NCBI RefSeq assembly: GCF_032854445.1
Contig: NC_088306.1
Location: forward strand, 25,763,764-25,827,763
Origin: Liolophura sinensis
Lineage: Eukaryota > Mollusca > Polyplacophora > Chitonida > Chitonidae
Length of the DNA: 64,000 bases
Reading direction: 5' to 3'
Shown: in pieces, positions 1,642 to 33,763 of the stretch
How the letters are laid out: the number at the start of each line of letters is the position of its first letter
Position numbering within the stretch: the first letter of the stretch is position 1
Position numbers and translations under genes: made by a program
The notes under the pieces: generated by a model
The model's input: the letters and a program-made list of their open reading frames with translations, nothing else
What the model was told of the DNA's origin: nothing
The model's database searches: none

Positions 1642-4600
1642 TATGAACATATATAAATCTACATTTCTTATTTTCTATACTTATCTAAAAAAAATGAATG
1701 CTCATTTACACAGACTCTCTATAGTAAACATTTATATATGGTGATTTACCAGTACATCAATAGAGGACAAAATACCTATTCAGTATTGCTTCAGACTTTA
1801 ATGTTATTTCCAACATTATTCCATTACATCAAAAAAACAAACAAGGCCTCATACTTTTTTTTTTGGAATTTGGGCATCCTTTCACTAAATTAATTTGGGC
1901 TAAAATAGTTTTAGATATTAAGAAACCTTAACTTAATGTCTCACATTATTAAAAGACCAACTTATGATGTCAATATCACTAATAAATAAGTCAGTGTACA
2001 TGAATATCAGGATTTTATTGAAGTGAAATTTACAGACAGTATTCCTCAAAATTTGGGCATCTCCAGGTTATCAAAATGTCCTTATATTAGGCCCCAACAG
2101 GACAGCCATATATGTATCTCCTGGGCAGTTCCACCACATTGTTTAAACCGAAAAAGTCAGAAAAAAGAAATACTTCTTTTGTTTCTTACCGTGAGGTCGA
2201 TACTACTGGCTAGTCGCCGCCCTCTCAAGTCACTGCCCGGCGTGCCCATATAGGTATTGGTCTCAGGTGGAAACTGGCTGAACATGTTGGACATGTTGGA
2301 AATTGCACGTTTCAACTTTCGAGGGGTCTTGTTAAACGAGAAAGCCCTGCTCACTCGTTTACCAAATCTGTGAAAATGAAAAACAAACTAATTTATATCC
2401 CATACTAAACAAATAGAAGAGGCTATATTGGTGTTGCCTAATATTACTTTTGGAATTTCGACAGTTGTATTTTCTGGTTCTTTCTCTCATTCTTACTTGA
2501 ATGCCTTGCTGATAGAGTTAGTTCCCATATCTGTCATGTCGATGTTGAACTCTTTTCCATCCACCTGGGTCATTAAATTCTCCTGGAAAATACAATGTTC
2601 AACTGTGAACAACTTAGATAGCATGATTTGTGTACTTTAAACTTTGTTTTGGCCAGACATTCAGAGTAAAATTTAAGTTTCATTGTGAGTTGGAGTTTCG
2701 CATGAAACATAAACATGTAGTTGACAATATTTAACATTTTAAAAATAGCCAAGTTTAGGTGCTTTTTCCTAAGTTTAGATGTTCTTTTCCCAAGTTTATA
2801 CCACGGCGATAGCAAATTTATTTTCACTTTTACAGGCAAACCAACATTAAAAAACCAAAAATGAAATAAACATAAAATAGAAGATCTAAATTTTTATTGT
2901 GTCTGATCCTAATATTTTGAAAGCTTTCCAATCACAAAGATCACCAAGTCTTTAACTGCAACAATTGTTGATACAGTCCACCTTACCCACAAATTAAATG
3001 ATTTTTTAGTTATACTTTAGTTTTTGTACCCTTGTACCCTTTGTAACAAAAAGCAAAATTGGTAAGGCCAATAAACTTTAATTTAAAAAAAGAATGGCCC
3101 CATAATTCTTTAAAATTAAAAGTACAATAATAAAGAAGATCAACCTGCAAACACATGCATAAAGATACTAACATAATCTGCCCTGCACATGGTGTTTGCC
3201 ATATTTTTACTCAGTGCTGTCAGAAAGTCCATTTTCTTTGTCTCATCACAGTCTATTGTAAAACTGTACAATTTTTCCTTGAATTCACTGTTGTTTCTGC
3301 AGATCAGTGCAAAGGCATTCCGACATTCTGCAAGGGAAAACAAAAAACGCGCACATGTGAAATATGAAAATATATTTTTCTTCAAAAAATTGGAAATGGC
3401 TTTGATTGTGGATAAGAATTCATTGAAAAAGAGCAAAAACACTGAAAAAACCAAACCCCTAACACAAAAAAAACACAAAAAACACAGAAGAAAATTATGA
3501 GCCATTACAAATTTAACACAGTTATACCATCTGATTCCACAACATTGAGGACTCTTTTGACAGAGGTCAGGGGCATCATCTCTAAGTGTTTGAAGGCCTT
3601 CTGCGGGGTTTTGTGGGGGGTTTTGTGATGCGGGGACTTCATCTGGTTCAGAGCCTTCATCCGTCGCTTACAGATCTAAGGAAAACAGAAATACAACAGG
3701 CTTATCAGTGCCAAAACTTAACAATTGCCCACTTACCCTAGGTGACTGAACAGAAATGAAGGCAATCAAAATCTCTCTCATCAGTTGCCTGTATTGAGAG
3801 AGGAAATTTTTCAAAGCACTGCTAAATCATTTCACTCTGTTTAAATGAATGGGCAAGCTTTTTCTAGAAGTTACCAGATTTTCTAGTGAGTCAACACCTA
3901 TGAGGGCATTCAGTCTTTGAAAACCACTTGCCCTTCCGACAACTACCTCGAAAAGTTGACTTTCAACAATGAACTTATCATAGTGGCTGAAAACAAAAGC
4001 CTTATTAATAAAACATATCTGCTCCCATTTTTTGTAAGGTACAAGAAACAGATTAACACTCCAAATCTGTAAAAATGAAGAACAAAATGGAGCATGGATT
4101 ATGAGAAATCCTAAGATGATAGGACATTCATAATTATATTGAGGCGGCACTGTCTTCATGGTGTGCACACAGTGTGAACATTGGTGTGCACACCATGTTT
4201 AGAGTGAGTGAGTGCTTAAGTTTTAATGTTATACTTAATAATTTTTCATCACATGAAGAGGAAGAGCCCTTAAGTGTGTGATGCAATCTGCCACCTTTTA
4301 TGCAGGGCTCTTTTATCTGGTGCCACTCACCAAACAAAAAAAGTTTACTTCATAACGGCAAGCTAAAAATGCAAATATCCCTAATTATGCACAATGAGTA
4401 AATCCCCAACAGCAAGCTAAAAGCAAATGCGTGTAATGACCCCGAAGCCTCTGACCAGTGCAGTCGCTGTCAGTTCAAGTCCAGCTCAGTGGGAAGGTCT
4501 GCAGCAACCTGCGGATGGTCGTGGGTTTCCCCTCCGGCTCTGCCCAGTTTCCTCCCACCATAATGCTGGTCGCCGTCATATAAGTGAAATATTCTTGAGT

Positions 4601-7600
4601 ACGGCGTAAAACACCAATCAAATAAATAACAAAAAAGCAAATGCTGCAATTAAAAAAAAATATCAAGTTACAGCCCCAAGTGGGAGAATTTGTCCTTAAA
4701 ATGTAGAAATCCCACATGAAATAGCTGAGAAATTTTCTCCACGAGTGACACACATTGTCAGGTCCAAACCATTGCATTCTCAAACATCATGAATTCTCAG
4801 TCGCTGCAGTACTCACCTCAAGGCTGTCAGAAAAGAGAAACAGGCTGAGGTGGTCTCCCCTTCCACTTAGTCCCCCGCTGATCTCCATCACGTCTATCCT
4901 CATTTCAAAGTTACGATGGAAGGACAACAAGTTGGGCTGCGGACCAAAAGATACAGTAGATGAAAGTGAAAGTGAAAATACAGCAATCAAAATGCACTTC
5001 AGGAATACTGTGTTTAACAATGGAAGCTTAGCTCTACTGGCTGTTGCTATGTGGTTGGCTCCAGGGGCCTCTTGCATAAAGCCAATGTAGGCTAAGTGCA
5101 CAGTGACCACAATGATCACATATGTTTTCAGCATGTGTCTCCATGGTAGTTACAATCAACTTAGCCTACAATCACTTTGTACAAGCAGCCCCAGGATTGC
5201 AAGGCAGTCTTATTAGACTTAGTCTTATCTCATGGAATAATTCCTGAACTAATTTTTTAATTTAATCTTTTTAAATTTTGTCATGTAAAGTCAAAGTCAA
5301 ACTCTAGGTATTGAAATAAAAATCCCTAAAGTAACTGTTGTTACATTTGTAACAGAGTAGTAAACTGTTTGAAAATGAGGCCTAAGTCTGACTTTCGTCT
5401 ATGACAGCTTCATCATCCCGAAGTGAGATCTTTTATTCATTTGGCAGCTGCCCTTTTATTGGCAAAGTAAACAGTGCACAGTGATCATCAGATTTTCAAT
5501 GCATATTAACACTGCATTTCAGCGAATGGTTTACAGGCAGCGAAATTTGGCCTGCCGGCGAAACCCAGAAATCGGTTACGTCTTTTCCGCCTCGCCTAAC
5601 CGATCATTTGGTTACGCCACGTATGTTTATCAACCCGATCGGTTACGCTAATTGTTTATGTGGTTTATGTTTCAGGCATCATTATGGATCATTAATAAAA
5701 GTATTCAGCTCAATGTTATGTTTGTTTTTCTTTTCTATATCTAGCAGCTCATACCGTATGGTTGGTGAACAACAGAAAGAGAAATTTTACACTCACACGG
5801 TGTTTCAACGTTGTGTGTTGCCTGGTTGGTACTTGACTCCTGTGGCACATTTTTACGTGAAATTCCGTTATACAGGCTTATATGTTTGCAATATGCCCAG
5901 TCCAACATTAAGTACTTCCAGTAAGTGTCATTACGGTATTGGCGAGCGAGTTTGGTATCCCTGATTACTGATAATTAACGCAGTTTCCAACGCACGTGGT
6001 GTGAGTCTTACCACAGTGATATATATATATATACTTGCTACAGGGCCGGGAGAGACCTTGACGTCACAGGCCTATGCGTCACAGGCCTGTGCTCTAAATC
6101 AGAACACAGCCAGTGAGGTCCCGTAAGGGTTCCATCAATCTGTACGGTAGACTCGACTAATTTGGGCTCGAGTAGCAGTTAAACTACATGTACATGAAAA
6201 GGTAACCTTGTTTTATTTACTTGCGTGATCGTGAAAAGATAAGTCAAAATAAATAATTTGAGTATTATCTCAAAGCCTGTAAAGCATATATGAATGATTA
6301 CATTTCCATGTGACCAGCACAGGCAGCTGGCTGTGGCTGAAATTGATGTTTCTATTTTTAGACGCGTTGCCATACTGGCCGCGTTGTGATTATGAAAGCT
6401 GTTCAGTCCAGTTTATCTAATGCACACTGACTCTAAGGACGTTCTCGTTGGACAGTTGGCCTAACCGATTTTCCGGTTAGCCAAATTGAACCGCACGTAA
6501 CCGTTGCGCGACCGACGGTTTCGTTCGCGCCAAATTTCGCTGCCTGGGTTTAGTATTTCATCCTCAAAATCAATGACAACACAGCTGTGTATACCCTGGA
6601 CAAAATCTTGTAGACAATACAACCAGCCAGGCAGTAGATTTATTTATTTGACTGGTGTTTTACGCCATACCCAAGAATATTTCACTTATACGACGGCGGC
6701 CAGCATTATGGTAGGAGGAAACCGGGCAGAGCCCTGGGGAAACCCACGACCATCTGCAGGTTGCTGAGAGACCTTCCCACGTACGGCCGGAGAGGAAGGC
6801 AGCCAGGCAGTAGACACTCTTACAGATAAAATCACCTACCGGACAGTTGTCTATATCATAGACAATATCAAACATGGCCACTTTCCCTTCTATTTTCCGC
6901 TTGTCTTCATTGATGTGTCTGAAAATAAAAATTATGACAGGCTCAAAACATTGGCTCTTTAAAACAAAATTTTAAGAATTAAAACTTTATAATCTTTAAT
7001 AACAAATTTAGTAATCCACACTTAATGTCAGCATCAGTAATTTTGTTTCTTCATTTTCTACAGGCTGAAGGCTGACTTCTAAGCTCCTTTGAAGAGTTTG
7101 GGCAAAATTTTTCTGAAAAGATCGTTCAGAGGTGGTCAAATCATCTTACGTCATGGCTTCCTTGAGGGCCGCTAAGGCTTTTTCCACTTTTCCATGGTCA
7201 GCATTGGACTTGTTTGTATGCTTAAGAATATCTGTAAAACAGAACAAAAATTGGTTGAAAAAAAAAAAAACAAAAACAAAAAAACATAAAAACATTCTCT
7301 ATATCTGCAAAAAAAAAATATATACATATATAATCATAAAAAAATCTTTTAATAATGTTTTGCTTGTTTACTTATTGTTTTAATATTCCTGTATTTCTGA
7401 TTTGTACTAAAAATTGCATTTTCAAAAGCACATACAAGTCTTCCTGGTAAAACATTAATAACAGTTCATAAAAAATCATTGTAAAAGGTTGCCCTGTATT
7501 AAAGGTGGATGACAATCAGAATCTAGGAAAATGTGTCACATGAAAATTGCAAAACACACACACAGTATTTCAGTCAAACTACAACAGTTTTCAGCTTGAG

Positions 7601-10600
7601 GCATTCTAACTGCAGATAAATGCTGCCTCACTGAAATGCCATTCTGGTCAGACTGTACTGACATTAGGTCAAAAAATAGAACAGTAGGGTTGCATTGTAC
7701 CAACAAGAAAGTATCAATATAGCCAAATAAAAATCTTTGAGATGACACAAAACAGGAATTGAACATTGTCCACTGAATAACAGTTGAAAGCCACTCTAAC
7801 CACTCGGGTGCTATAATGCAATAGTCTGCAAATCAGTTAAAGCTCACCATTTAATAACAACATGACACTTGGCAATCTCTGTACAGGTCGAATCAGAAGC
7901 TCCTGTAGAGTCTGTCTGCCACACTCAGGTTTTGTCAAACACCTCTGAAAGAAGATCAATGCATTAGTTCAATGTTTTTAAAACTGACCTAAGGTCACAC
8001 ATGATATATGTCACATTTTTACACCTGTGACTTCAAGTCCAGCTCATGCTGGCTTCCTCTCCGCTCATACGTGGGAAGGTCAACCAGCAGCCTGCAGATG
8101 GTCGTGGGTTTCCCCCAGGTTCTGCACAGTTTCCTCCCACCATAATGCTGGCTGCTGTCGTATATGTGAAATATTCTTGAGTACAGCGTAGAACACCAAT
8201 CAAATAAATAAATAAATAAAAATTTTAAACATTTTTACACAACTGTCCTCATACAGTATGGTGCATTTTTACTTTTTTATTTATGTGTATTAATTAATTT
8301 GACTTATGTTTTAATCAGGGGCCTCCATGGCCTAGTGGTTAGCCTGCTAGCGCAGCACAATGCCCCGGGAGTCTCTCACCAATGCGACTGCTATGAGTTC
8401 AAGTTCAACTCATGCTGGCTTAATCTCTGATCGTACGTAGGAAGGTCTGCCAGCAATGTGCACAAGGTTGTGGGTTTCCCCCGGGCTATGCCTGGTTTAT
8501 TCCCACTATAATGTTGGCCATTGTGGCATAAGTGAAAAATTCTTGAGTATGGCGTAAACCACAAGTAAATACATGAAAAAAATGTTTCAGTTCACACTGA
8601 ACAATACCTCTTACATGTGCTGAGGTTTATGAATGGAGGAAACTGAAATGAACTCGGAAGAAAAGTGAAACTAGCTTGGGGGAATCAGAAAGAGCTTGGA
8701 AAAACCAAAAGGAGCCTGGAGGAATGCAAAAACAGCTTGGAGGAAAGTGAAAGGAGCTTGTAAAAGTCCAAAAAGAGCCTGGAAGAAACTAGAAAAAGCT
8801 TGGAGGAATGCAAAAAGAGCCTGGAGGAAAGTGAAAAGAGCCTAAAGAAACTGAAAAGAGCTTGGAAAAAAACTGGAAAGAGTTTGGAAGAAATTGAAAA
8901 GAGCCTGGAGGAAGCCAAAGAGAGTCTGGAGGAAACCACTCCAACTTACCAGGTAGCTGACACAAAGCCACACCACCAATTGCTGGATCTAAACATGTAG
9001 CTTCACTGAAGAAGTGCTACAAATCTTCTGCAAGAACCCATCAGCTGGTGCTGTCCACTTGTGCACATATTTTGCTGTGTATTTTGGTCAATGTCTTGAC
9101 TGTCACAATGTAGAGGCATAGCGGCTGCAAGGCAGTTTCTTTTGATTACTCACCTTGAGGAAAGCATGGAATCGAGGATTAGCTTTATCACATTTGGCAA
9201 TCATCTCCTTTGTTTTCTCGAAAAAGTTGATAAAAGGAGGGTAGATTTTACCCAGCTTCTCTGCCTGCAATACAGATAAAAAAAAAATTTGACACAGGGA
9301 GTTTAGATCCGATCAAAATTGAAACCTTTTGACACAACGGGCCGAGGGAGTTAGCACACCAGTGCTGCACAATGACCCTGGTGCCTCTCACCAATGCAGT
9401 CTCTGTGAGTTCATGTCCAGCTCATGCTGGCTTCAACTCTGGCTCTGTGGGTGTCCTCCCACCATAATGCTGGCCACCGTTGTATAAGTGAAATATTCTT
9501 GAGTACGGCACAAAACACTGATCAAACAAATAAATACATTTTAACACGAGGCACACAAACTCACAGGTCCAGCAGACAAGCACTAGTCACAAATCTGTTG
9601 CTGATATCTTTGGCCCGGTTTCACAACGCTGTCGCCACACAGTGCCAACTGCATTTGCCATGCTGTCGTAAAATGTCTGAACTATGCGTTACATCAGGTG
9701 CATTATGCAGCTGCTGCATCAAACGGCTTCCAGAAATGCAAGTTATTCAACCTTTGAAATGCGAACATGGCTCCACCTACACAGGCTTTCCAGAATACTT
9801 GCATTTTACGTCACGATTATAAAGATAAACAGTGTGAGAACAAAAACATAACCACAGCCAGGATTTTCTACCCTAAAACATGAGTTTTTGAACTCACATG
9901 TTTAAGGATGACATCGCCAATAGAGTGGTCTTCTCTCCAGTTTGACAGGATCTCAGCGAGCTCATCCCGAATCTTGCAGTGCACTTCATAAATCGGAGGG
10001 ATGTTACCGAAAATAATCTTACTCTCCTGAGGTTTCAGAAGGGGTCCATTATACTGAGATGGTTTTTCGATCTCTTCTTTGAAAACCTAAAAATAAGAAA
10101 AAAAACAAGTATAATTTTCATTACATGTACTATATGCTATTCTAATATGCTAACAAGCTTATAAATGCAGATCAGGTATATGTATGGTGTTTTATGTTGT
10201 CGTTTAGAATTTTTCACTTGTCTGCCAGCAACCTGTGGATAGTTGTGGGCTTCTCCATGGCTCCCCCCAGTTGTTTCCTCCCATCATAATGCTGGCTGCC
10301 ATCGGTTAGATGAAAAATTTTTGAGTACAGCATAAATCAGCAATAAAACAAAAGTTACGTTCTGAAATTGAAAATGGGGCATAAAAAATGAAAGTGGAAA
10401 AAAAAAAAATTAATAACTGAGTCAGCCAAAAAAACTCTTAAAACTACAATTTGAAACTATCCAAAGAAACGGAATTCAGAAGTAAGAATTCTGAAAAAAA
10501 AACTGAATTACATATACAGTATTCTGAGTAAATGTACAATTTATTGAAGTATTGAAAAATCCACCTGTCTGGATTGGACCTGGCTGACTTGATTCTGGTA

Positions 10601-13600
10601 CCTATGCCTGATCCACTTTATGTGGACGCATCTTGTGCATTGTCCTACCTTCAGAATTGTCTCTAAAATGCCCACATAGTTTTTCTCTGTCTGTAGAAGT
10701 TCTGTGACAACTTGAAACCTGGGGCTGGCCTTTGTCGTGCTCTGAGGTTTGGGCGGAGAATCAGCAAGTGGCTGGGTCGTGTCTGAAATGGTCCCAGAGG
10801 GGGAGAGAATGATTTGCTGTTATCAATTAACATTCAAAGCTATGATGTTCCAAGTCAATTTGATCTGTCAGTCCTGAGAGCATATATGATTAAAATATTG
10901 CAATAACAACCGGCTCGCCTCAGCAAAAATGAATTTATTAACTTTGTTTTCGGGACACCAGATGATTTTCATTTCATAAGCCACTTCAGGGCCAGCTGCC
11001 TAATGGGAAAGAAAATCAGTGAACAATTCAAGGCTCTGTCTATTTTTCTACCCTGTACAATTTCAACGTTTCTGCTGAATTAGTCTGAATTTCAAACAAA
11101 GAAGTATTGAAAACTTCCAAAAATTAGAACAAATCTTAAATCAATCTTTTAAATAAGATTCAGAGGAATTAAATCTACCATTTATACACAAATGACATCA
11201 AAAGTTGCCTTTTCATATATTTACTTCCTTTACTGAAGTACATGTACATTGCCACCCTTTAAACTCTTTCACTTTCACTATAGCTTTATGTTTTATTGGT
11301 AGAGGAAACAGGAGTGGTCATGGCAAGCAATTCATTTATGGAAACAAAGGCTAGGGAATAAGAGTAAAATAATACAAAAATATACCAACCTTGAAGAAAA
11401 CTGGACTTTTCTGGCGTTCCTGAGGCATCAAGGAAGGAGTTGGGGCTCATGGAGACTCGCTCAAATGAAGGGCGTTTGGCATACATGAAAGGGGAGTCTA
11501 TTTCACCCTCTGATGCCAAGAGAGCGATATTCTCCTTGAGCCTCTTTCGTTTCCGAGCTTTCGACATCGCTGAGGTAGGGGTAAACTTGTTCACGTTCTG
11601 GGGTTCTTGCTACAAAGTTACCACACACACAGCACTATAATAACACCACATCAGCAACTTTTCTGATTAGAAATCAAGCAAAATTTGTCATTTGAGAAAT
11701 GCTAAACAAAGTTTTAGGTGAAATACAGTAATTTATGTATAAGATTGGTGTTTGCAGATTCCCAGGCTGGTAATGATTGATTGATTGACAGACTGACTGG
11801 TGTCATGTGATGTACTTCACTTATACCACTACAGCCTGGTTTACAGAAGGTAAGAGAAAGTGGAGTGACTGAGCTACATGTAACCTGTCCCGCATGCAAT
11901 GGACACAAAAATTGTGTACTGCATATGAAATAAGAGTGTGTTTCTCAGATGCAAAACAACTAAAGAGTAAAATATCTCATGAGAATGGACTCTAACATGG
12001 AATCACATAAAATGTTTTCCAACTTTTATTAACTTTAATTTGAAAACTAGGAGCATCCTTGGGTGGAATTCTACAAACCTTATGTTCATCAAATAAATAC
12101 ATAGTTTCATCTGCACATGCCCCGATCTGAATACTGGCCCAGAACCACTGAAAAAGAAAGTAACATATTAATAAAGAAAAAAGAAAGTAACAAATTAATA
12201 AATAAAAAAGTAACAAATTAATAAAGAAAATAAAAAGAAACTTGTTACTCATTTTACACAACTATGACAACTATGACAGGCTTTCAGTGCTGAATCACTT
12301 TGAACCAACACATCTGTAAAAGGTGGAATGTTTTTAATTTCCTGTGGAAAACAATCTCTGAAATCAGTATTAAGACTGATACACAGGCCTGAAAGTTTTA
12401 GGTAATATAATCTAATGTCCATTTTATTTGTTTTTGAAAGCCTGGACGGTCCTATAAAAAAAACTTCCACTGCTATATTTCCCAGAATGGAATACAATGA
12501 AAATCTCACCTCTAGTCGCACAACAAACTGCGGGGTGGAAATGGGAGGTAACTCTTTGACTGCGTGGTCATCTACCACCAAATGTGTGCTGTCTTCGTGA
12601 CCAATAGGGGCCAGCGTTCCACCTACAAGGGAGACAAACACAATACCAAGTCTTCATTGGCTATAACAGTTTATAACAGGGGCGTTTCACGTTCCAACTC
12701 TTTAGTCGTTGAAGGTTAAAACAGTCATACAGTATCATGTGCCCTGTCAAAACGGATACCCAGCCTGTGTAGTCATTAATTTACCTATTACTTACCTCCC
12801 TGTGTTCCCGAAGCACAGATGACCTCTCTTTCCTTTAGAAACCTGTTCACAAGTTCACAAGTGTTCAGTCGCTCAATTTTCTCCATCGTTCATCTACTCT
12901 GAATAACTTTCTGCCAAACTTCTTTTCAGGCGACCATGTTACAGTAATGTGATCCCGCAATAGACGTCTAACATTTTTTACAGATCACATGATAGGATTT
13001 TTATTACCTTTAGTGATAAAGGAGTTTGAACTGGAAACTCTCCTATTAGGCATGGCAAGTAAATATCAGTACTTCTCACCTGCCAGTTTTGATGAAAGTC
13101 AAAATTTTAATTGTAATTCAAAAGCTTAGTTTTGAAATGTGTGGTGCCTTACACGACGAAGTGCTTTTGGTGAAATATAAACACACTGTTAACCTCAAGC
13201 ATCATAAACTCCACATTCTGTTGAAGTTTTAAATTTGCACCTCTGTCAAAACATGCTTTGTTGAATCACACAATAAAAATTCTTCACCATTCCTTCATCT
13301 TCTTATTCGTCTTTAAAAGTTCAGTTTTACACATATAAAAGGTAATTCTTTACCATTCTCCAAGGTCATCTCTTCCACATGCTTTTTCTCTTCTTCTGAG
13401 AAACCATGAAAACTTAAAAAGCATTTGTAGAATGGTTTCATTCGGTGCTTCATCTGAAAAAACATCACACAATGTTTCAACGGGGTTATCTTCAGGAGCT
13501 ATTCCATAACTTTGATAATTAGTTAATATATGCATCCTCTTAAAATACAAGACGATTTTCATCACCACTTCTGCATGGAAATAACAGCTGATCTCAATTC

Positions 13601-16600
13601 GCAGCAATGTGGCCGGCAAAAATCGAATCTAATGGCTCCAAAACCTTCGGAAACTGTTACAATTTGATTGAAATGGGTAGAGTAAGCAAGTGCAACTTTA
13701 ATTCTTTTGTAGTTTGTATTTTAACTTTCCCTCCATTGTTATAATTAACTTCTTACATGGAAAAGCATATGGGGTGCAGCTGAAATTAATGAATGTGATC
13801 AAAGAAAAGTCATAGAACATTAAACACAGCAAATCTTTCATCGCATAGAATAATAGTGTTACTCTACTGTGCTGAGAGGAAAGGTTCTTACATTGTAGCC
13901 CACAGTTTAAAAACAAAGCACTGTGGCTGCATACAGTACCATGAAGTCATTGTGCAGTGCTGCGAGGTTCATGACTGCACTGTACCATGCAACCCTTGGC
14001 TGTGCGGTATATGTATTTATTACACGGCAATACCTAACGATATTCAGTGGCTCAGATGAGAACGGCACTGTACTGTGAGGTCACAGCTTTGCTGTGGATT
14101 TCTTTGTTCATTTGATTGGTGTTTCACAGAGAACTGAAGAATATTTCACTTATATGACATCGGCCAGCATTATGATGGGAGGAAACCAGGCAGAGTCCAA
14201 GGGGAACACACAACCATCTGCTGGTTGCTGGAAGACCTTTTCACATTGACCTTGGAGAGGAAGTCAGCATGAGCTGCACTTCAACTCACAACGACCACAT
14301 TGGTAGGTGGCTCCTGGGTCACTGTGCCCCGGCTTTGCTCTGGATGATCAGCTGTAGAATTTCTACGTTGCTACTATACTTACCAATTCTCCGCAGTCAG
14401 CTTTGACTGTGATGTCATCCCTCATAGACCAGGCTTTCGACACCCATTCATCATTCATGATTGGCGTTCCACAGCTAAATGCATACTACAACACACAAAT
14501 ATTAATCAAGTTTATAGTACTGGTAATAAACCATTGTTTCTTGCATGTGAACTGTCCTCATGCGCCAATCCTGAGTCATTTCACTGAAAAATTTTGCTTT
14601 TGTCACATTTGATGAACCTTAAGCAGTAGAAAGGTAAAATTAAAAAAAAAAAAAAAAGAGGCAGTATACAAAGTATTGCTATATATGCTCTTTCATTTCT
14701 AATCTTCTAATAAGTTCAGTTTTGACAGGTTTTTCTAAAAAAGAACACTTGTTTATAGTTTGCTTTATCCTCCACTATACAATAAAAAAAACACTTAAAT
14801 AAACTTTCAAATTATGTTTTTGATTTTATGAGTTTATGAAAAAAAAGTAGTCTGAAATCAAATTTAAGACATGCATTTTACAGGATATCCAAAAATTATG
14901 GAACAAATGTTTGTTCACTGCTGTTCAATTTTACACAAGTATTGTGCAGGGCCCGTTCGCGTTCATGTGGCTACCATGGTGATGTAATACCTACTGCACT
15001 GGTCCCCATAAAAGCATTACATGTGTAACATGAAATGGGCCCCAGATGTCCAACCACTCACCTTGTACTTGCTGCCTCCTTTACAATCAGTGGTCAGACA
15101 CGTGGCTTTAGGCGGGATGAAATGGGCCCCAGATGTCCAACCACTTACCCTGTACTTGTTGCCTCCTGTACAATTAGCGATCAAACACGTGACTTTAGAC
15201 GGGATGAAATGGGCCCCAGAAGTCCAAACACTTACCCTGTATTTGTTGCCTCCTGTACAAATAGCGATCAGACACGTGACTTTAGACGAGATGAAATGGG
15301 CCCCAGATGTCGAACCACTCACCCTGTACTTGCTGCCTCCTGTACAATTAGTGATCAGACACGTGACTTTAGATGGGATGAAATAGGCGCCAGATGTCCA
15401 ACCACTTACCCTGTACTTGCTGCCTCCTGTACAATTAGCGACCAGATGTGTGACTTTAGACGGGATGAAATCCTTCCTTATACTCCCTCCCATGTGATGA
15501 ATCAGATCTGCCATCTTCACCTGTGGAACAAAGCATGTTCAGTTACCTGTCGCTTGTTAGTATACTTTGACTAACCATTGCTTTTGACATTATTTCAGTA
15601 ATATCTATTTATTTATTTCTTTATCTGATTGATGTTTTATGTTATACTCAAGAATATTTTCACATATAGTGCCCAGCACTACGCTGGGAGGAAACCGGGC
15701 AGAGCCTACGGGGGGAAACAACCATATGCTGGTTGCTGAAAGACCTTCCCACGAAAGTCCAGAGAAAAAGCCTGCTTAAGCTGGACTTTAACTCACAGCT
15801 ATCGCATAGGTGAAAGGCTCTTGGTGTCACTGTGTCTTGCTAGTACACGTACACTAACCACTCGGTCACGGTTGAGTAATAATAATTAATATAAAAAATC
15901 ACAACAGAATCTCCTCGTCATAGGTTTAGTCAAAGTGCTGCTTCACTGGAATGCCCTGCTATAAATGTAACACCACGCTCTATCACTGGATCTATCCCAT
16001 CCTACCAAGCTCTAATAGGGAAAACCAGTACAATGCTGCTTCACAGGAAAGCCATATCACAGACATGACGGACACCACACCAAGTCACGGCTCACCGACC
16101 TATGAGCCAATGGTTATATGGTCTTTCTTCGCCTATCAACAGACTATTAATGTTGTCAACTTTGCAACACAAAGTTAAGTTTCATCATGTTTTGCAAGTT
16201 TAATTTTGTCAGATGTCTATAATTTACGAACGACTGATTCAGATGTTGACACACACATACACATGGCAAACACACATGACCACAGTGGATATAATAGACA
16301 CACAGTTAACTATAAGTAATTCATTTTTTTTTTTTAAACATATAAACCAGCTGGATAAATTATTAAAATACATACATATTACCTATGTATGTAAATATAA
16401 TATACACTGTATTTCGCCTAAATTTTAGCCTTTCTCAAGTGATGCATTTTGCTTAATTTTGATTGATTCATCCACCTTATACGGCCCCTTAAAAGTCTGA
16501 TTAATCTGTTATCATAGAAATATACATGTTGCAATTTATATCATTTATATGCTCCTGAAAGTGCATTTACCACATACTAAACAGCATATATATTTTTTTT

Positions 16601-19600
16601 TCATTTAAGAAGAAGTTATTCTTAAGCTACATGTAAAGGTAGATGAAGACAATCATTTTTTACCAGTTTTTGTTTTGAGAAGCCTGTAAAGCAGACGATA
16701 AGGCCTCTCATAGATGTGCAGTATAAAGCCCGAGAACACTGAGGAATAGTCTGAAAACAGAAATATCGTCTTTCAAAATCATATGAGCTCATCATATACA
16801 ATAACACAGAATAAAAGGTCAGAGGCCTAAATGTGACAAATTGTCATAAATATCATGAAATAATGTCATTAATAGCCATTAACATGCAAATGTGAAATTT
16901 TCCACGAAGTCATATTAAAACAGATCAGATAATGTAATTTTAAATAACATGACGTGAAATACTGGTCGGCTAAATTATTAATAGAAAAGTACACACTCAC
17001 ATAAACAAGTTGAAAGAATTTTAAACCTAACGAAGGCTTTACAACTTAATGCAAGTTTTTTTTATCACTATGCTTGCCTCTGCACAACTGCTTGCTAATT
17101 AAGACACTCAGACTGAACATATTCAGGAGCTGGATAAAGAAGTAATTTGCTCTGCAGTGTTAATCACACAAAGAGAAAATGCCATTCACTGGATTTGAAC
17201 CCTCAACCACCAAACCTCTAATACCTCACCTGATTGTACTTGGCACATTTGATGACCACAGGAGGCCCGACAATCCTCGCCTCCGCTCTGTGAAGTTTGT
17301 GGAAGACTTCATCCTGAAAATCCCCAATGACAAACAGGAGATCATCCGTGCCAGCCTCTGCGATGTGTTCCAGCCCAGTATTGGAGAAAGTCACAGGAAT
17401 GTCCAGGGCCTGTTACAAATACAAAGTATATCCACATGCACTCTTAATATGATTAAATGTATAAAATCTAAGGCACTCTTCTTGAGTACAAATCAAATTA
17501 AAAATCAAATAAAGTATGCGTACTTCAGAAATTTTTCTTGTGATTACCACTGATGAAGGTGCTGGCTAAAACAGTAAATTGCTTTTCAGACAATAACGTT
17601 TGTCATTCATTCCAGAGACAAATTGCCACATGCTGGATTTGAACTCTGTCACCTCACCTCATTATACTTGGCACACATAAAACATCTATACATCGATTGA
17701 GGGATTGGTGCTTCCTTATTTAGGTATTTGATTGTTGTTTATTGCCATAATCAATAATTTTTTTCAAATGAAAAGTGACATGATCCGTATTAGCCAATGA
17801 ATGTTCTGTGCCAGAAAAATACCAACAGCCGTCACGTTATTAGTTGGATGGAACCAGTGTGTCCCGGGTACATATATGACATAAATTATTTATTTATTTC
17901 ATTGGTGTTTTATGCCTTACGGTGCTCAAGAATATTTCCCTTATATGACGGCAGCCAGCATTATGATGGGAGGAAACTGGGCAGATCTCGCCGGAAACCC
18001 ACGACCATTCACAGGTTATTGGCAGATATACGGCCTGAGAGGAAGCCAGCATGAGCTGGACTTGAACTCGCAGTGAACTGCATTGGTGAGAGGTTCCTGT
18101 GTTATCAAAGACAAGTAGTCTTTGCAGAATGTTGTCTGTGTGAAGGCCACACAACATGCATTGATGAACGGTAAGAGTGTTGCTTCAAGCTGTACCTTTT
18201 ACTCTAAGACATTGCACTTGCACATAATTATGATAGCGGTTATAAAACACCCAACTGTTTGTCCCACATTTAATCCTACACCCAGTTTACCTTTATAGCT
18301 TTCTGTAACTCCGGGTCTTGTCTGCATTTCGTCCCCACAACTATGATCTTGGTTGGCTGCTCATCTGGAGGGAGAGAAAACACTCACAAATTTCATCTTC
18401 TGACAAGGACATCTGCATGTCTTGCGTAGCGACTATTACATACCATTGTAATTCTTCTAATTTTTAGGGCAATAGCAGAGTTTCCTTTTTTTATAAATTT
18501 TTTTTGGTAAAGATGTGTAAACATGTATGTTGTTCATTAAATGGGCTAACTATGTGAGAAAAGAGAAACTGTGTAATCCTGTAATGGCTACATCTATATT
18601 GGTTAAAACCAATATATCAGATGTCCCAAAAATTCGACGAATTACAGTATGTACATACCTTTATAACCTATATGTTGTAATTGTAAAGGATGCAAACAAA
18701 GTGAATTACTAATAGGGAAGTGAAAGTCATGGGTGAACCAGTGAGAGCTGGATTTGAACTGGTGACCTTATTGGTTAGGGTAAACTAGGGCAACTTGATA
18801 GGTTTTTTTTAATCTTCCGACAGAATATCAATTAGCTCATCAGCATAATTAGGACAGTATTCTGTAAAGCCGAATTTCTTGCCGAAGTCCTAAGCAAGAA
18901 GAAAGAACCTGTCCAAAAATGAACATTAAATTTTGAGGGATGAAGGGAATCTGTTACTGGGTTAAGAAATAATCCCCTTTTTGTAATTGTTTAGATGAGG
19001 TCATTCATTTAACAGAAGAAAAAAAACAAGTGTCTGAATGTTTTCGGACTATAATTGCCCTGATAGTTCTCAACCTATACATTAATAACTGGGGCTTTAC
19101 CTCGTACTTAACAATTTTTCAGTCATATGATGATAAAGAGTCATCACATGTGTTTACATATAATATTTCTTCTTGTGACACAGCGAGTTGATGCCGCGAA
19201 AGTGCAGCCGCCACTGAAGTACCATGCAGCAGACACCAGACCTGACACCCCACACAGTCACATTATGCTTGTAAAGTCTTTGGTATGATGCGACCCAGGT
19301 TTGATCCTGGGTGTCCTGACTTCGAGGCACTCAAACCATTAAGCCATTGATTTTTTTTTTTTTTTTTTTTGATTGGTGTTTTACGCCGTACTCAAGAATA
19401 TTTCACTTATACGACGGCGGCCAGCATTATGGTGGGTGGAAACCGGGCAGAGCCCGGCGGAAACCCACGACCATCCGCAGGTTGCTGGCAGACCTTCCCA
19501 CGTACGGCCGGAGAGGAAGCCAGCATGAGCTGGTCTTGAACTCACAGCGACTGCATTGGTGAGAGGCTTCTGGGTCACTACGCTGCGCTAGCGCGCTAAC

Positions 19601-22600
19601 CGACTAAGCCACGGAGGCCCCTTTAAGCCATTGAAGCAGTCACAACCAATGAATGAAGCCCGCAGGAAAGCTACATGCAGCTTCCTATGATCAAGAGCTT
19701 TGATCCTACGTTCAAATTCTCCACTACTGAGGACATTCCAGCTAACTATATGTGGAGAGAATATGATTTTTCAGCCACTGGACAAGAATGTCTGAAGTTC
19801 ATCCACTTTACCTTGACCTTGTGAACAGTGATACAGAGGGTAATCCACCTCCCACTATGCAGAGTGATGTACTAAGATTTCAAACCTTTTTATCATTATT
19901 TGTTAGATATGAACAGCTGAAAATTACAACTTACTTGGGAGTGTGTATGTATACTTAGAGATTTACGTTGCACTTAACAATTTTTCAGTTATACATGATG
20001 AGAAGTCATTAGATGTGTGTACATATATATATGCACTATATTTTCTAGTGGAAGGGCGAGTTTGTGCCAGCACAGTGCACCAGACATGACACTCCCACCA
20101 CAGAAATATCATGCCAAAGACACCAGACATGACACTTCACCCAGTCATATTACGCTTACAGCTGGCCAGTCCTGTTTTCTTGCACTAACCTCTTAATGCT
20201 GACATCCACGCAAGGCAGCAACAAGTGCTTTGCTCAAAAATTAAGTTACACTTATTCTAGAGAGTAGGACAACCAGTATTATATCTGCTACATTTTAAAA
20301 CGTTACTAGACAAACTATTTTAATACTCGTTCACGAACAACTGTAAACTAATAACATGACAGATGCAGGTGCAAGCTGATGAATGTTAGTAGTACGCAGT
20401 AAGCCAGTTGGTTTAATTAGCGAGTTAAAGCATTATGGATTTTCCACGGCAAGCAAAGACCATTATAGCATTATAATCAGTTTTTTGGGGTATTGACAAA
20501 ACACCATGTTCAAGCGTATTACTATGATTACAGAATGTACCAGGGACAGCTACTTAATGTTCTCAGATTTCTCAGGCACACACAAAAAATGCAGAGGGAG
20601 TATTTTTAGAGGTTGACTCATTAGGGCTTGGCAAGTTTCTAATCAAGGTAAGGTTGATTTGATTGTTTTTTAATTATATGAGAACAGTTTGCAACATAAA
20701 GTGCACCTGCTGTCTACAAAGGGAGGTAAATCTAGTAAACCCACAAAACAGTACACTGGTCGATCCTGCTGGATAACACAAAAAAAAATGAATTACATCT
20801 GATATTGAGAGAGGCAGATGGCTCTGCTCTTCCTTTGTACATCCTACACTTATCATATGTTTATACATCATCATGTATGTAACCAAGCCTGGAGGAGGAC
20901 TGAATAAGCAGGAGGACTGGGTCAAAATCACAATGTCTTGCACCACGTGGCAGGGATCAACCATTTGGTGCACTATAAAAACTTTTTTAGTAGCAGCATG
21001 TTTGTAATTATTTCCTGGACCACCTTCATGATTTCCGCGTTTGGTTAGCAACCAATCTGATACAGGCTGCACCCCTGCACTTTTACAGGTAACTTTTTGT
21101 GGGTACATGTGCCTGAAAAAATGGTGGAGTGTTATCATGGCTTGAACACAATGAACACTGCTACAGAAAGTAGAATTTGGGAATCTTGATCCTAGAACGA
21201 TGGTTAAAAATACAAGCTGCACAAGCACTTGGCAAATTTCAGATAACTGATACATGTGTATTTATATTAAAGACTACTACGGGCTCTGCCCGCTTTGCTC
21301 TCACCCTGATGCTGGCTGTCGTTGTACAACTGAAATATTCTTGAGGACATCATAAAACACCAATAAAATAAATAAATATTTTAAAGCTGCAGTCTGACTC
21401 GTCCAAGGTAAAAGTGTTAGGAAAACTAAACTTTGTATTTGTGAACACCCCCCCTCAGCAGGAAGGAGGGTAAAACAGAATAACGAAATGTTCAACCACT
21501 CAAGTACTTTTTTCAGTGGAATTTATGTTTACAATTAATTGATGAAAATGACAATAAAATGATCTGTGCCACAAAATGATTTTTATTTGTGAGAGGAAAT
21601 TAATTAAATTTTCTGAATTTCGGGGTTCAATGAGTTTCTTCTAACTGATCAAGTTCAACACATGTAACCAGAACTTCATCTGCATAAATGGTTACACACA
21701 TCTGTGTTTTTAGTAAATTTCAGAAATTCATCATGTATCAGACTAAGAAAGTAATGTACTCTGTGTAAGTGTAGTATCAGCTGAAAGCCAGGGAGAATAG
21801 ATACATGTAGATGGTAACAATGCCACACAAGCCAATTACTGTGGAGAGAATCAACATACCAGCACAGCATGCACTGTGAGTAATAGAGAGCATGGTGAGA
21901 CTTGAAGCTGTTTTAACCAGCTGTGAATCAGGAGCGCGACGCATGACCTGACAGACCACTGAAAATGTGCGCTTTATGCGACGTCCACCAACAACCACTA
22001 CCACAAAGGAAGACGAAACGAAAAGACGATAAATGAAATGTGTTAAATAAAGGGAAACAAAGACATTAGTGATTAATGAAACAGACGCAACGAAATGCAA
22101 CTACATGTAAGTTACTATAACTGTTCATACAATTCAACATATTTGTATATCTAGATGATATAAATGTACAAGAATCATGTAATTTGAACTGCTAAAATTA
22201 ATTGGTCCGTGAGACATTTTACACATCAGATAACAGCCGTATGGAGAAAACTCTCCGCATCCTCCTTCATTCAAGTCCCACTATATTCTGTCTGACTAAT
22301 ATGGTTTTGCTGTGTCAGATCACTAATCTTTACTATTACCCAAGTTATCAAATAAATATAGGCCTAGATATAGGGAATGTGAAAGCATACATTTCATGAA
22401 AATAAACAACTGTAAAAAAAAAACATCAGAGCACAGAGGAAACACATTCATGGAAACTGAATAAGACGACTGCTCAGTTGGTTTGATCTGTTAGCTGCTA
22501 TGTTTTCATGAGCATAGATCAAAATGGCTTCGGGGCACAACATTCATTCAGGAGACCTGAGGGCAGGGTCGTTTTGTCTTACACAGGGACACATGGATCT

Positions 22601-26772: not shown

Positions 26773-27312
26773 GTTTAGACTCGAGAAGACCCTTCTTGGC
26801 TACCCCACACAGATTAAGCATAGTGCACATGGATGTTTTACTAGTCAGACTCAGAAGCCCAAACTTGTGCTAACCCTACTTGTTACTTAGAGTTTTTGTT
26901 TTTATTTATAGCACCTCTCTTTTAGCATATGCTTTCAGTACAGAGAGCTCTGTGAAGTGACTGGGGGGTAACTTGGTATAAAATGCTAATTGCTTCGTCT
27001 CAGCCAAATACTGTACACTGTCATGTTTATACATAGATACACACATGTATACACCTGAAGTACCGTGGCTTCTGCATAATAATTTGGGATGTATTTTGGG
27101 TAACTTATGTGTGTGCTTAGGTGCAAATTTTAAACTTAGTGTTTTTTTTGTAACTCAATGTGTTACATATATTTGAGAAAAATTTATATTACAGGTGTGT
27201 GTACAGTATATAGAAATTGAAAAATTTAACTGACACAGCAAGAAATTTAATTTCTGTTTGAGCGTAACATGGTATGGTTGTTTGATGCCAAGAGCATCTG
27301 CATGTACGAGTA

Positions 27313-28345
27313 CAACTGTAACGAGACAGAGAGCAGCACTTGTGTACAGCTGTAACCAGACAGAGAGCAGCACCTGTGTACAGCAGTAACCAGACAAAGA
27401 GCAGCACTTGTGTACAGCTGTAACCGGACAGAGAGCAGCACTTGTGGACAGCTGTAACCAGACAGATAGTGTACAGCTGTAACTAGACAGAGAGCAGCAT
27501 TTGTGTACAGCTGTAACCAGACAGAGAGCAGCACTTGTGTACAGCTGTAACCAGGCAGAGAGCAACACTTGTGGACAGCTGTAACCAGACAGAGAGTGTA
27601 CAGCTGTGACCAGACAGAGATCAGCATTTGTGTACAAATGTAACCAGACGGACAGCAGCACTTGTGTACAGCTGTAACCAGACAGAGAGCATCACTTGTA
27701 TACAGCAGTAACCAGACAGAGAGCAGCACTTGTGGACAGCTGTAACCAGGCAGAGAGTAGCACTTGTGGACAGCTGTAACCAGGCAGAGAGCAACACTTG
27801 TGGACAGCTGTAACCAGACAGAGAGTGTACAGCTGTAACCAGACAGAGATCAGCATTTGTGTACAAATGTAACCAGACGGACAGCAGCACTTGTGTACAG
27901 CTGTAACCAGACAGAGAGCATCACTTGTGTACAGCAGTAACCAGACAGAGAGCAGCACTTGTGGACAGCTGTAACCAGGCAGAGAGTAGCACTTGTGGAC
28001 AGCTGTAACCAGGCAGAGAGCAGCACTTGTGGACAGCTATAACCAGACAGAGAGCAGCACTTGTGTACAGCTGTAACCAGACAGAGAGCAGCATTTGTGT
28101 ACAGCTGTAACCAGACGGACAGCAGCCCTTGTGTACAGCTGTAACCAGACAGAGAGCAGCACTTGTTTACAGCTGTAACCAGACAGAGAGCAGCACTTGT
28201 TTACAGCTGTAACCAGACAGTCAGCAGTACTTGTGTACAGCTGTAACCAGACAGAGAGCAGCATTTGTGTACAGCTGTAACCAGACAGAGAGCAGCACTT
28301 GTGTACAGCTGTAACCAGATGGAGAGCAGCACTTGGGACATCATC
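27313..28345. repeat. 34-bp minisatellite, about 30 copies, with a 229-bp higher-order repeat
   Basis: The unit is GTGTACAGCTGTAACCAGAC plus AGAGAGCAGCACTT, 34 bp; TG(T/G)ACAGCTG sits at 27411 and 27445 and so on. A variant block containing ATCAGCATTTGTGTACAAATG occurs at about 27620 and again 229 bp later, showing that a multi-unit block with a shortened copy was itself duplicated. The unit has no stop codon on the minus strand in any frame, so three overlapping long ORFs appear. They are almost certainly not genes. Confidence 0.92.
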
Positions 28346-31106: not shown

Positions 31107-31212
31107 AATGACGGCTTTATACCAGATGTATGTTTTTATGTTTTCTCAGATCCTGTCCAGAGTTGATGCTTGAAGTTCCATAAGCTGAAAGGCTTCACTT
31201 TCTTTTTTCGTC

Positions 31213-33763
31213 ATGGCACAACGTCTAGTCAGGGTGATCAACCTAGGACGAATGGGATTCATCCCCGCCTACGACATCCAAACCCACTATGCTCGCCGAC
31301 ACCTAGAATACCTTACGCACAAATTTGGAAATCCGGCCGAGGATGTCCTGCTCTTGGTCGAACACAACCCTGTGTACACAATCGGTATTCGACGCGACAA
31401 ATACACAGAGGAGGACGGAGTCCGGCTTAGAAAATTAGGGGCAGAATTTTACAATACTAACCGTGGAGGTCTCATAACATTCCACGGCCCAGGCCAGCTT
31501 GTGGCCTATCCGATACTTAACCTGCAGAACTTCCAGCCAAGCCTTAAGTGGTATGTGAAAGCACTGGAAGAAACGATGACAGGAACCTGCCAGGAATATG
31601 GACTGGATGCTACAACAACGGAACATACTGGGGTATGGGTCAATGATAGAAAGATAGGAGCCATAGGTAAGCTTCATACGCAGTGTATACATGTATAAGT
31701 ACATTTACCACGCGTACACATAAGTTCAAGTCGTGTTGCATGAAGTTTAGCTGGAATCCTTAAAGCATCTGGCATGTTGGGTGACATCTGGCGATTGGGT
31801 AGCCACTATTTCTCGACACCCATTTTCTCCTTTGGAAATAAATTCAACTTGCAATGTCCGATGGATGTCACGCGTTACCATTTCACTCTTCTGTTGTTGT
31901 TGTTAACTGGACAAATGTGCCTCTGCCACACAAGAGTTTCGCCAATAGGTGACATTGCTCTTAAAAATCCAAACAAAGGCAAAGCTACCGGTTCTCTATC
32001 ATCTGATCGCAATATGTTGTATGACTGTAGTTCAACTAAATTAAACTTTGAGGTCTGTTTCCTGTAATTTCTGATACTCAATTCTTAATGTTGGCACTTT
32101 GAGGAATAAAGTTGGCCATTAAGTCCACTCCAAAAACAGCGACACACGCCGATTTTTGGTGTGGACTTAGAAGAGATGGGCGTTCTTGATCACTCCAGTA
32201 AGTTTCAGTCAATTTCAGACTAGTTATATACAGAAAACCTGAAAAATGTTGACTTTTTTTCTTTTCAATATTGTGGTGTGCACGCGCAATGCATTGGGTG
32301 CACCCAAAATCCGAATTGTATCTGAGGCCACAGGCAGAAAACATGGATAACAAAGCAGATGTGCACATGATGTCTGCAAGCCTTGATTGGAACCTTTAGA
32401 ATCGATTGACTTGGCAAATTGCTCTTTCTATTCTACATCCATGATGACCGATGAAATCATCGCTAGTTGTCATTTAAGACATTTATTGTCGTCTTGTCTT
32501 GTTAGGTTGATTTCTGTATCTTTTGGCACCCGGCTGTGAGATTAAAGTACACCCGACTTGCCATGACAGCACAGAGTTATTTTGATGAAGGAGAAGGAAA
32601 TATTTGTGTGGATTTCAACAACATTTCTACTCGGGAATGGATTTACACTTGTGGGAGTGGTAATAAAGGTCCTATTCTTTTAAATGCACTCCATAAATCG
32701 GCGTATACATCCGTTTCAAAGTGGATTTAAATGCCCACTTCATTCCACACAGTGCCTTGTGGCATGGATCTACCGGGCTTTTTAATTCAAGGATTAAACG
32801 TTGAGGCAGGTAAATATTAGAAATTGTCGAAATTATAGACCTCAGCGTTTAATTTAATTGAACTAGTGTGACCAAGACAGGAGAATGATCAATTTATATA
32901 AGGTATGTTATGCATTTGCTTCATTGTGTCATCCATTCCACCAAAGGCATTTTAGTTGGTAATATTTGGCTCTGTCGAACATTGGCTGTGGGCAGGTAGA
33001 TTAAAGCTATTATCTCCCCTGATGGCAGGCCCTTTCCTCTGAGGGCAGGCTCATTTGAGGTGCAGTCTGTCCTGACGGCAGGCACCCAAACATATTAAGT
33101 TACACCACTGGTAATGTATACCAAATATTTATTAAGGAGAGCTACACTACACCAGAATGTAAAAGGTACTCTATTTTGCTCCAGGTTTCAGTTTGTTAAA
33201 TGTATGTATATTTTTAGTGTGTCATGTATGTTGTATAACACTAATCAGATTAATCAATGTTTTTAGAAAGTTAACGTGATTTGAAACCAAACGGAATCCG
33301 CAATTGGTTGGCGATTCCACATATCACACATGGAAAAGGTTTGGCCAAAGGTTGGTGGTTTTACCCTGGGCACTCAGGTTACGTAAAACATGTGAAGCAG
33401 ATTGCAGTCATAAAAGTGAAAATGAGTATGACATTTAACAGAATTTTATAAGTAAATAAAATGTTATTTGCAGGTGTCCATGCCAGCCGTTTCGTCACAA
33501 CACACGGAATCTCCCTGAACTGTATCACAGACCTGGATTGGTTTCAACATATTGTGCCTTGTGGGATTGAAGGCAAATCAGTTACCTCCCTTAGCAAGGA
33601 ACTCTCTAAGAACATTACCTCTTATGATGCTGTGAAACCGCTTCTGCTGAACTTTGAGAAAGCATTTGAGTGCGAATGTGAATATTCCTTGCTGGAAGAT
33701 CAGGACAAGGAAGTTTTACACATTGTCAAAGAACACGGCATCGCGGTGGATAACAGTCAATGA
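31213..33763 (+). CDS. LIPT2: LIPT2: lipoyl(octanoyl) transferase 2, two coding exons
   Basis: Mitochondrial octanoyltransferase of the LipB family; it moves octanoate from acyl carrier protein to GCSH/lipoyl domains, the first step of lipoate synthesis (family knowledge). Exons 31213-31666 and 33474-33763 join G|GT in phase 1 (GT at 31667, AG at 33472-33473) and give about 247 residues, near the vertebrate length of about 231. Hallmarks seen: VEHNPVYTIGIRRDKY, RGGLITFHGPGQLVAYPIL, the catalytic-lysine motif DRKIGAIGV spanning the intron, THGISLNC, and the catalytic cysteine in HIVPCGIEGK. Start: first ATG of the frame, TCATGG context; an acceptor-like TTTTCTCAG at about 31142-31150 hints at an upstream untranslated exon. 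No strong targeting peptide is obvious. Confidence 0.95.
31667..33473 (+). other. LIPT2: LIPT2 intron (nothing else seen)
   Basis: A 1.8-kb intron with GT-AG ends. I see no recognised repeat or exon inside; ORFs at 31774-32067 and 32536-32730 have no family match. Confidence 0.8.

Follow-up and report, generated by a model that had tools for sequence, protein, structure and literature searches.

Five in-phase splice donors in a tandem repeat across an exon border of the ECT2 gene of Liolophura sinensis

In a 64,000-nt window of the genome of the chiton Liolophura sinensis (contig NC_088306.1, positions 25,763,764 to 25,827,763 of the forward strand), the end of one exon of the ECT2 gene is repeated five times together with its splice donor. 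This raises the question whether the five donors form a switch by which inserts of graded length are placed in the protein, or whether they are what a neutral repeat leaves behind when it grows across an exon border. All positions given here are those of the window.

The ECT2 gene and the repeat array

For the gene model, the minus strand of 2999-18000 was translated in three frames with stops written as X, and the splice borders were set by hand; the model is based on similarity and splice consensus, and the terminal exons (first and last) lie outside it. The 17 modelled exons give a single open frame of 699 amino acids, in which the end of the last modelled exon (exon q) is uncertain, its donor scoring -1.74. 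The exons from 17409 to 3172 match the human ECT2 chains 4n40 and 6l30 over the triple BRCT region, linker, DH and PH, and the two exons joined via donor 1 match them with E = 4.3e-21 and 1.9e-20, respectively, the junction being aligned without a gap (KFR VAVSLGTP in human ECT2, KYR YAFSCGTP here). The preliminary description of this DNA, which had been made from the letters alone, named the gene (ECT2) and the domain (BRCT1) correctly. As to the neighbours on the plus strand, a lipoyl protein ligase domain lies at 31189-31698 (Pfam LplA-B_cat, E 1.2e-31) and a DC-STAMP-like protein at 45380-46519 (E 5e-57), while three further open frames of the window gave no match to Pfam at 0.001.

Both a reading of the minus-strand sequence over 14201-16000 and a script place an 87-bp unit five times head-to-tail on the minus strand from 15471 to 15037 without indels, and Tandem Repeats Finder reports the array at 15030-15471 (period 87, 5.1 copies, 89% matches, 0% indels, score 702), that is, five full copies and seven further bases (Table 1). 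With head-to-tail copies, clean borders and a 7-bp shared border, the array is a tandem repeat of the minisatellite type. The five copies across the exon end had been recognized in the preliminary description, and so had the make-up of exon end and intron start; each unit holds the last 62 bp of the exon and 25 bp of the intron, rather than the approximately 30 intron bases proposed, and the exon-end motif taken as common to all copies reads AAATACAGG in copy 3 and AAGTACAAG in copy 5. Any two copies differ at 6 to 14 of the 87 sites (7-16%), and 23 of the 87 columns are variable across the five; third codon positions make up 3 of the 17 variable exon columns. Thus, the copies are neither the identical products of an assembly slip nor those of a very recent expansion.

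Table 1. Features of the repeat and its surroundings, in window coordinates; on the minus strand each copy starts at its higher coordinate, and the base named for each donor is the last exon base before it
Feature	Position	Strand	Remarks
ECT2 gene body as modelled	3172..17409	-	17 exons: BRCT0, BRCT1, BRCT2, linker, DH, PH
ECT2 BRCT1 exon spliced from donor 1	15410..15520	-	111 bp, phase 0, ends SKYR with the K195-equivalent lysine
Repeat copy 1	15385..15471	-	62 bp exon end, donor 1 (after 15410, GTAAGT), 25 bp intron
Repeat copy 2	15298..15384	-	donor after 15323, GTGAGT
Repeat copy 3	15211..15297	-	donor after 15236, GTAAGT
Repeat copy 4	15124..15210	-	donor after 15149, GTAAGT
Repeat copy 5	15037..15123	-	donor after 15062, AAG/GTGAGT; least similar to human ECT2
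Terminal ATTTCAT, 7 bp	15030..15036	-	repeats the first 7 bases of copy 1; a partial copy, or the microhomology present originally
First in-frame stop past the fifth donor	15017..15019	-	
Next ECT2 exon	14384..14485	-	YAFSCGTPIMNDEW..., phase 0; the exon to which each of the five donors would join

Other long-period tandem arrays are present in the window at 1-773 (79 bp x 9.8), 27310-28335 (34 bp x 31) and 53778-54045 (51 bp x 5.3), and Tandem Repeats Finder adds those at 8662-8938 and 53347-53465. In addition, a dispersed repeat of about 150-230 bp occurs in many copies on both strands, some within the ECT2 introns; among the matches listed (40 of 151 pairs), its copies include 15608-15834, 14098-14326, 8025-8216, 6638-6803, 4489-4636, 17886-18102 and 19351-19622, and its tail presumably resembles SINEs of molluscs. 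On the plus strand, open frames of 124 and 181 codons run through the array at 15012-15386 and 15029-15574, which probably exist because the repeat length is a multiple of three.

Copy 1 is the one that resembles ECT2 best. In the stretch SKVTHLVANCT it is identical to human ECT2 at 11 of 11 residues, compared with 8, 8, 9 and 4 in copies 2-5, and when the end of each copy is set into the domain, Pfam PTCB-BRCT gives 52.8, 45.1, 45.1, 45.7 and 35.2 bits for copies 1-5. Two longer spliced forms that were tested score higher as whole proteins (61.2 and 72.3 bits, versus 52.8 for the donor-1 form) because the repeats contribute extra partial matches. Copies 2-5 have in common a histidine-to-cysteine change and a base change turning the next valine into isoleucine, a codon that in copy 5 has changed again, to threonine; these shared changes probably reflect common descent from one extra copy that had already drifted. 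The lysine of SKYR is kept in all five copies. A single-sequence AlphaFold2 model of 15520-15062 has repeated strand pairs at a mean pLDDT of 58.3, too low to interpret.

Donor strength, reading frame and chance

The five donor hexamers all conform to GTRAGT, and a 24-base donor pattern with up to three mismatches occurs in the window at exactly these five places and in none of 100 shuffles; a search of viral contigs with the same pattern gave no match. From the acceptor at 15520 the frame is open through all five donors up to the stop, and every donor joins the exon 14485-14384 in phase 0, giving two-exon products of 71, 100, 129, 158 or 187 residues. The canonical donors, open frame and shared phase reported earlier are thereby reproduced by script and ORF reading, and script and gene model return the same insert sizes of 29, 58, 87 or 116 residues. 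With at least two consensus-matching donors upstream of one acceptor, the locus has by its sequence the arrangement of an alternative 5' splice site. A different acceptor at 14851 (9.57, versus 10.07 for 14485) was rejected, its in-phase reading meeting a TAA after five codons.

When the donor scores of the copies are compared, as had been proposed, U1 pairing is strong for all five (-11.1, -11.2, -11.9, -11.1 and -11.8 kcal/mol for donors 1-5): 12 of the 15 other donors of the gene pair less strongly than even the weakest of the five, two (-12.2 and -12.3) outdo all five and one (-11.6) falls between. The donor matrix, trained on those 15 donors (range 5.54-11.65), is highest for donor 5, which at 11.65 ties the best donor of the gene and has the same nine bases, and places donors 1-4 in the middle (7.61-7.98), 9 of the 15 training donors exceeding all four. 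The two measures disagree on donors 1-4, and neither marks any of the five as a dead site. Exon definition is expected to favour donor 1, and nearness to the acceptor donor 5; the sequence by itself gives no evidence that donor 1 wins. The available part of PMC4222953 gives no rule for the choice among equal donors.

RNA structure was rejected as a selector of donors, given an unremarkable fold z-score (-0.84 over 491 nt, the array being not significantly more folded than shuffles) and accessibilities mostly within the range of the other donors of the gene. Averaged over -3 to +6, the accessibility of the ladder donors is 0.21-0.76, versus 0.12-0.79 for the 15 others of the gene, while over +1 to +6 copies 2 and 5 (0.12 and 0.08) fall just under the minimum of the others (0.13). 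In copies 1 and 4, a 13-bp pairing is possible between the intron segment and the exon segment of the copy that follows (15415-15343 and 15154-15082 on the minus strand), which would hide part of the donor; copies 2 and 3 fold differently over the corresponding stretch. Rfam has no match in 14201-16000.

Is there any sign of selection on the copies? They show 26 differences from their consensus (6, 4, 6, 2 and 8 for copies 1-5), 19 of them in the exon part, where 15 are non-synonymous and 4 synonymous; neutral placement expects 5.2 +- 2.0 synonymous changes, and as few as observed have P = 0.36 in 20000 simulations. Copy 5 alone has 7 non-synonymous changes and no synonymous one. Estimates of pN/pS, a weak test at just 60 codon bases per copy, are 0.62, 0.29 and 0.30 among copies 2-4 and 0.62, 0.94 and 0.60 for copy 1 against copies 2, 3 and 4, all on very few changes, and 1.77 to 3.0 in the four pairs involving copy 5. 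The comparison of dN/dS that had been suggested thus yields low values within copies 2-4 and behaves overall as neutral; it weakly suggests that the five copies are under no overall constraint, with room for mild constraint in copies 2-4. Moreover, the BRCT consensus is no longer present in copies 2-5, and over all five copies the changes ignore codon position, so that most of this evidence does not appear to favour a maintained function of these copies.

The intact frame and donors should be weighed against what chance would give. In neutral simulations, which treat changes common to several copies as independent, the frame stays free of stops in 47.5%, all donors remain GTRAGT in 17.8%, and both hold in 8.1%, a joint value that is suggestive, not significant; weak constraint could explain why copies that diverge by 7-16% have kept frame and donors and gained no stop. 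The unit length is divisible by three with a chance of 1 in 3, 10 of the 15 other donors of the gene are followed by 27 nt of intron without a stop, and an 87-bp unit placed at random in the modelled gene would span a donor with a chance of about 0.10 and any junction with about 0.19. The 151 dispersed repeat pairs of the window, which are mutually non-independent, have 296 gap openings per 3876 mismatches; for 26 changes about 2 indels are expected and none has P of about 0.14 (Poisson estimate), so the absence of indels from the array is unremarkable. Chance may well give a ladder that is open and in phase, and considering the divisible length, the common stop-free intron starts, the chance of straddling a donor and the other arrays, this one is a plausible by-product of a minisatellite-rich stretch.

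Position in BRCT1 and the possible readings

The SKYR at the end of the donor-1 exon aligns to EKFR of human ECT2, whose lysine lies 42 residues past the threonine of CFTGF (counted in the 4n40 construct). According to PMC5177604, T153 and K195 of ECT2 BRCT1 are the phosphate-coordinating pair needed for MgcRacGAP binding, human ECT2 with T153A/K195M fails to co-precipitate MgcRacGAP, and unperturbed human cells can complete cytokinesis without the interaction. The spacing of 42 residues matches T153-K195 and thus puts donor 1 two residues past the K195 equivalent. A review (PMC10386641) names BRCT2 as the autoinhibitory part and has BRCT0/1 serve activation and the binding of phospho-CYK4. 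Therefore, an insert here would more likely disturb MgcRacGAP/centralspindlin binding than autoinhibition, and the link to autoinhibition drawn in the preliminary description is weak. If longer isoforms are made, they would change the pocket by which ECT2, an important protein of cytokinesis, binds phosphopeptides.

Taking these data together, we consider it probable that the array arose by mostly neutral, minisatellite-type amplification across the 3' edge of an ECT2 exon, and that donor 1 does the splicing, with the others perhaps used leakily. A first extra copy would have been produced between two ATTTCAT sites, by slippage or unequal exchange; it would have drifted by the histidine-to-cysteine change and the base change from valine to isoleucine and then multiplied into copies 2-5. 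Donor 1 would yield the standard BRCT1, and copies 2-5 would normally leave the transcript with the intron, whose start they form. Since every copy has a good in-phase donor, splicing from donors 2-5 now and then, or in certain tissues, would yield productive mRNAs encoding 29-116 additional residues, placed two past the phosphate-binding lysine; such use at a low level is plausible and would be expected as leakage, not as a maintained switch.

It is unlikely that the donors are instead genuine alternatives, used in a regulated or stochastic way to add 0, 29, 58, 87 or 116 residues after the BRCT1 lysine and so to alter the binding of phosphorylated MgcRacGAP/CYK-4 and recruitment to the midzone. 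The near-equal U1 pairing, the stop-free common phase, the lysine kept in every copy and the low pN/pS among copies 2-4 are all consistent with it, and the dispensability of the MgcRacGAP interaction in unperturbed human cells (PMC5177604) could make such isoforms tolerable. Against it stand the 15 non-synonymous versus 4 synonymous changes, which form no purifying pattern over the five copies, the loss of VTHLVAN in copies 2-5 with a BRCT score dropping toward copy 5, the fact that chance gives in-phase openness fairly often, and the middling matrix scores of donors 1-4. A stronger form, in which the donor minisatellite is a protein-length dial, donor choice and individual copy number setting the number of lysine-bearing BRCT1 segments at the phosphopeptide pocket and thereby grading centralspindlin recruitment in cytokinesis, seems to us quite improbable. 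Slightly less so is the use of donor 5 as the main donor, so that BRCT1 of the normal protein would be lengthened by 116 residues; in competition assays it is often the donor closest to the acceptor that wins, and donor 5 has the best matrix score of the ladder, but BRCT1 would be broken right after its phosphate-binding lysine, neither of the two matched solved ECT2 sequences has an insert there, and copy 5 is the most altered coding copy.

Two further readings are very improbable. In the one, the duplication would have brought about a gain of introns, with acceptors inside the array and a 17-bp mini-exon: each copy holds a TGTACAG (TGTAAAG in copy 5) after a branch-like CTAAT, CTATT or CTGAT, and a tandem duplication crossing an intron-exon border is described in the available part of PMC4974935 to have made a new intron in potato. 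However, the best acceptors in the unit score 2.87, compared with 6.41-17.58 for the 17 acceptors of the gene (which are also the training set of the matrix), there is no polypyrimidine tract, and a 17-bp mini-exon would shift the frame, so that usable acceptors and mini-exons within the array were rejected. In the other, the array or its copy number would be an artefact, and assemblies can indeed misjudge tandem arrays; the 23 variable columns, however, seem too many for duplicated alleles, and the array ends cleanly at the 7-bp microhomology.

Relation to known systems

The ECT2 array shows how in-frame isoforms can come within reach without selection, once a repeat spans a splice border. 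The locus is in effect a natural competition assay, in which five donors nearly equal in U1 pairing follow very similar exon ends at 87-bp intervals before one acceptor and with no frame penalty, and RNA of Liolophura sinensis would directly show how position decides among such donors. No multi-copy donor ladder was found in the open-licence literature searched by title and abstract opening, although one may exist in print.

Three known systems come close, those in the literature being compared on the available parts of the papers. In the potato RdRp gene (PMC4974935), a tandem duplication likewise crosses an exon-intron border and multiplies the splice signals of the parent junction; there it was one duplication on the acceptor side and the new intron was confirmed by RNA reads, whereas here the four extra copies are of the donor side, and the DNA, from which alone the case is known, gives no support for a new intron. 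Tandem alternative donors, such as GYNGYN donors (PMC1779574) and in-frame sites (PMC2279118), also compete before one acceptor, many of them in phase, but they lie 3 nt apart by motif in the former and 3, 6 or 9 nt apart in the latter, while the present five sites are spaced by 87 bp and originated by amplification of a whole junction. Finally, minisatellites, including the other arrays of the window, consist of head-to-tail units of tens of bp as this array does, and what sets the ECT2 array apart from them is a unit that includes coding sequence and a consensus-matching splice donor.
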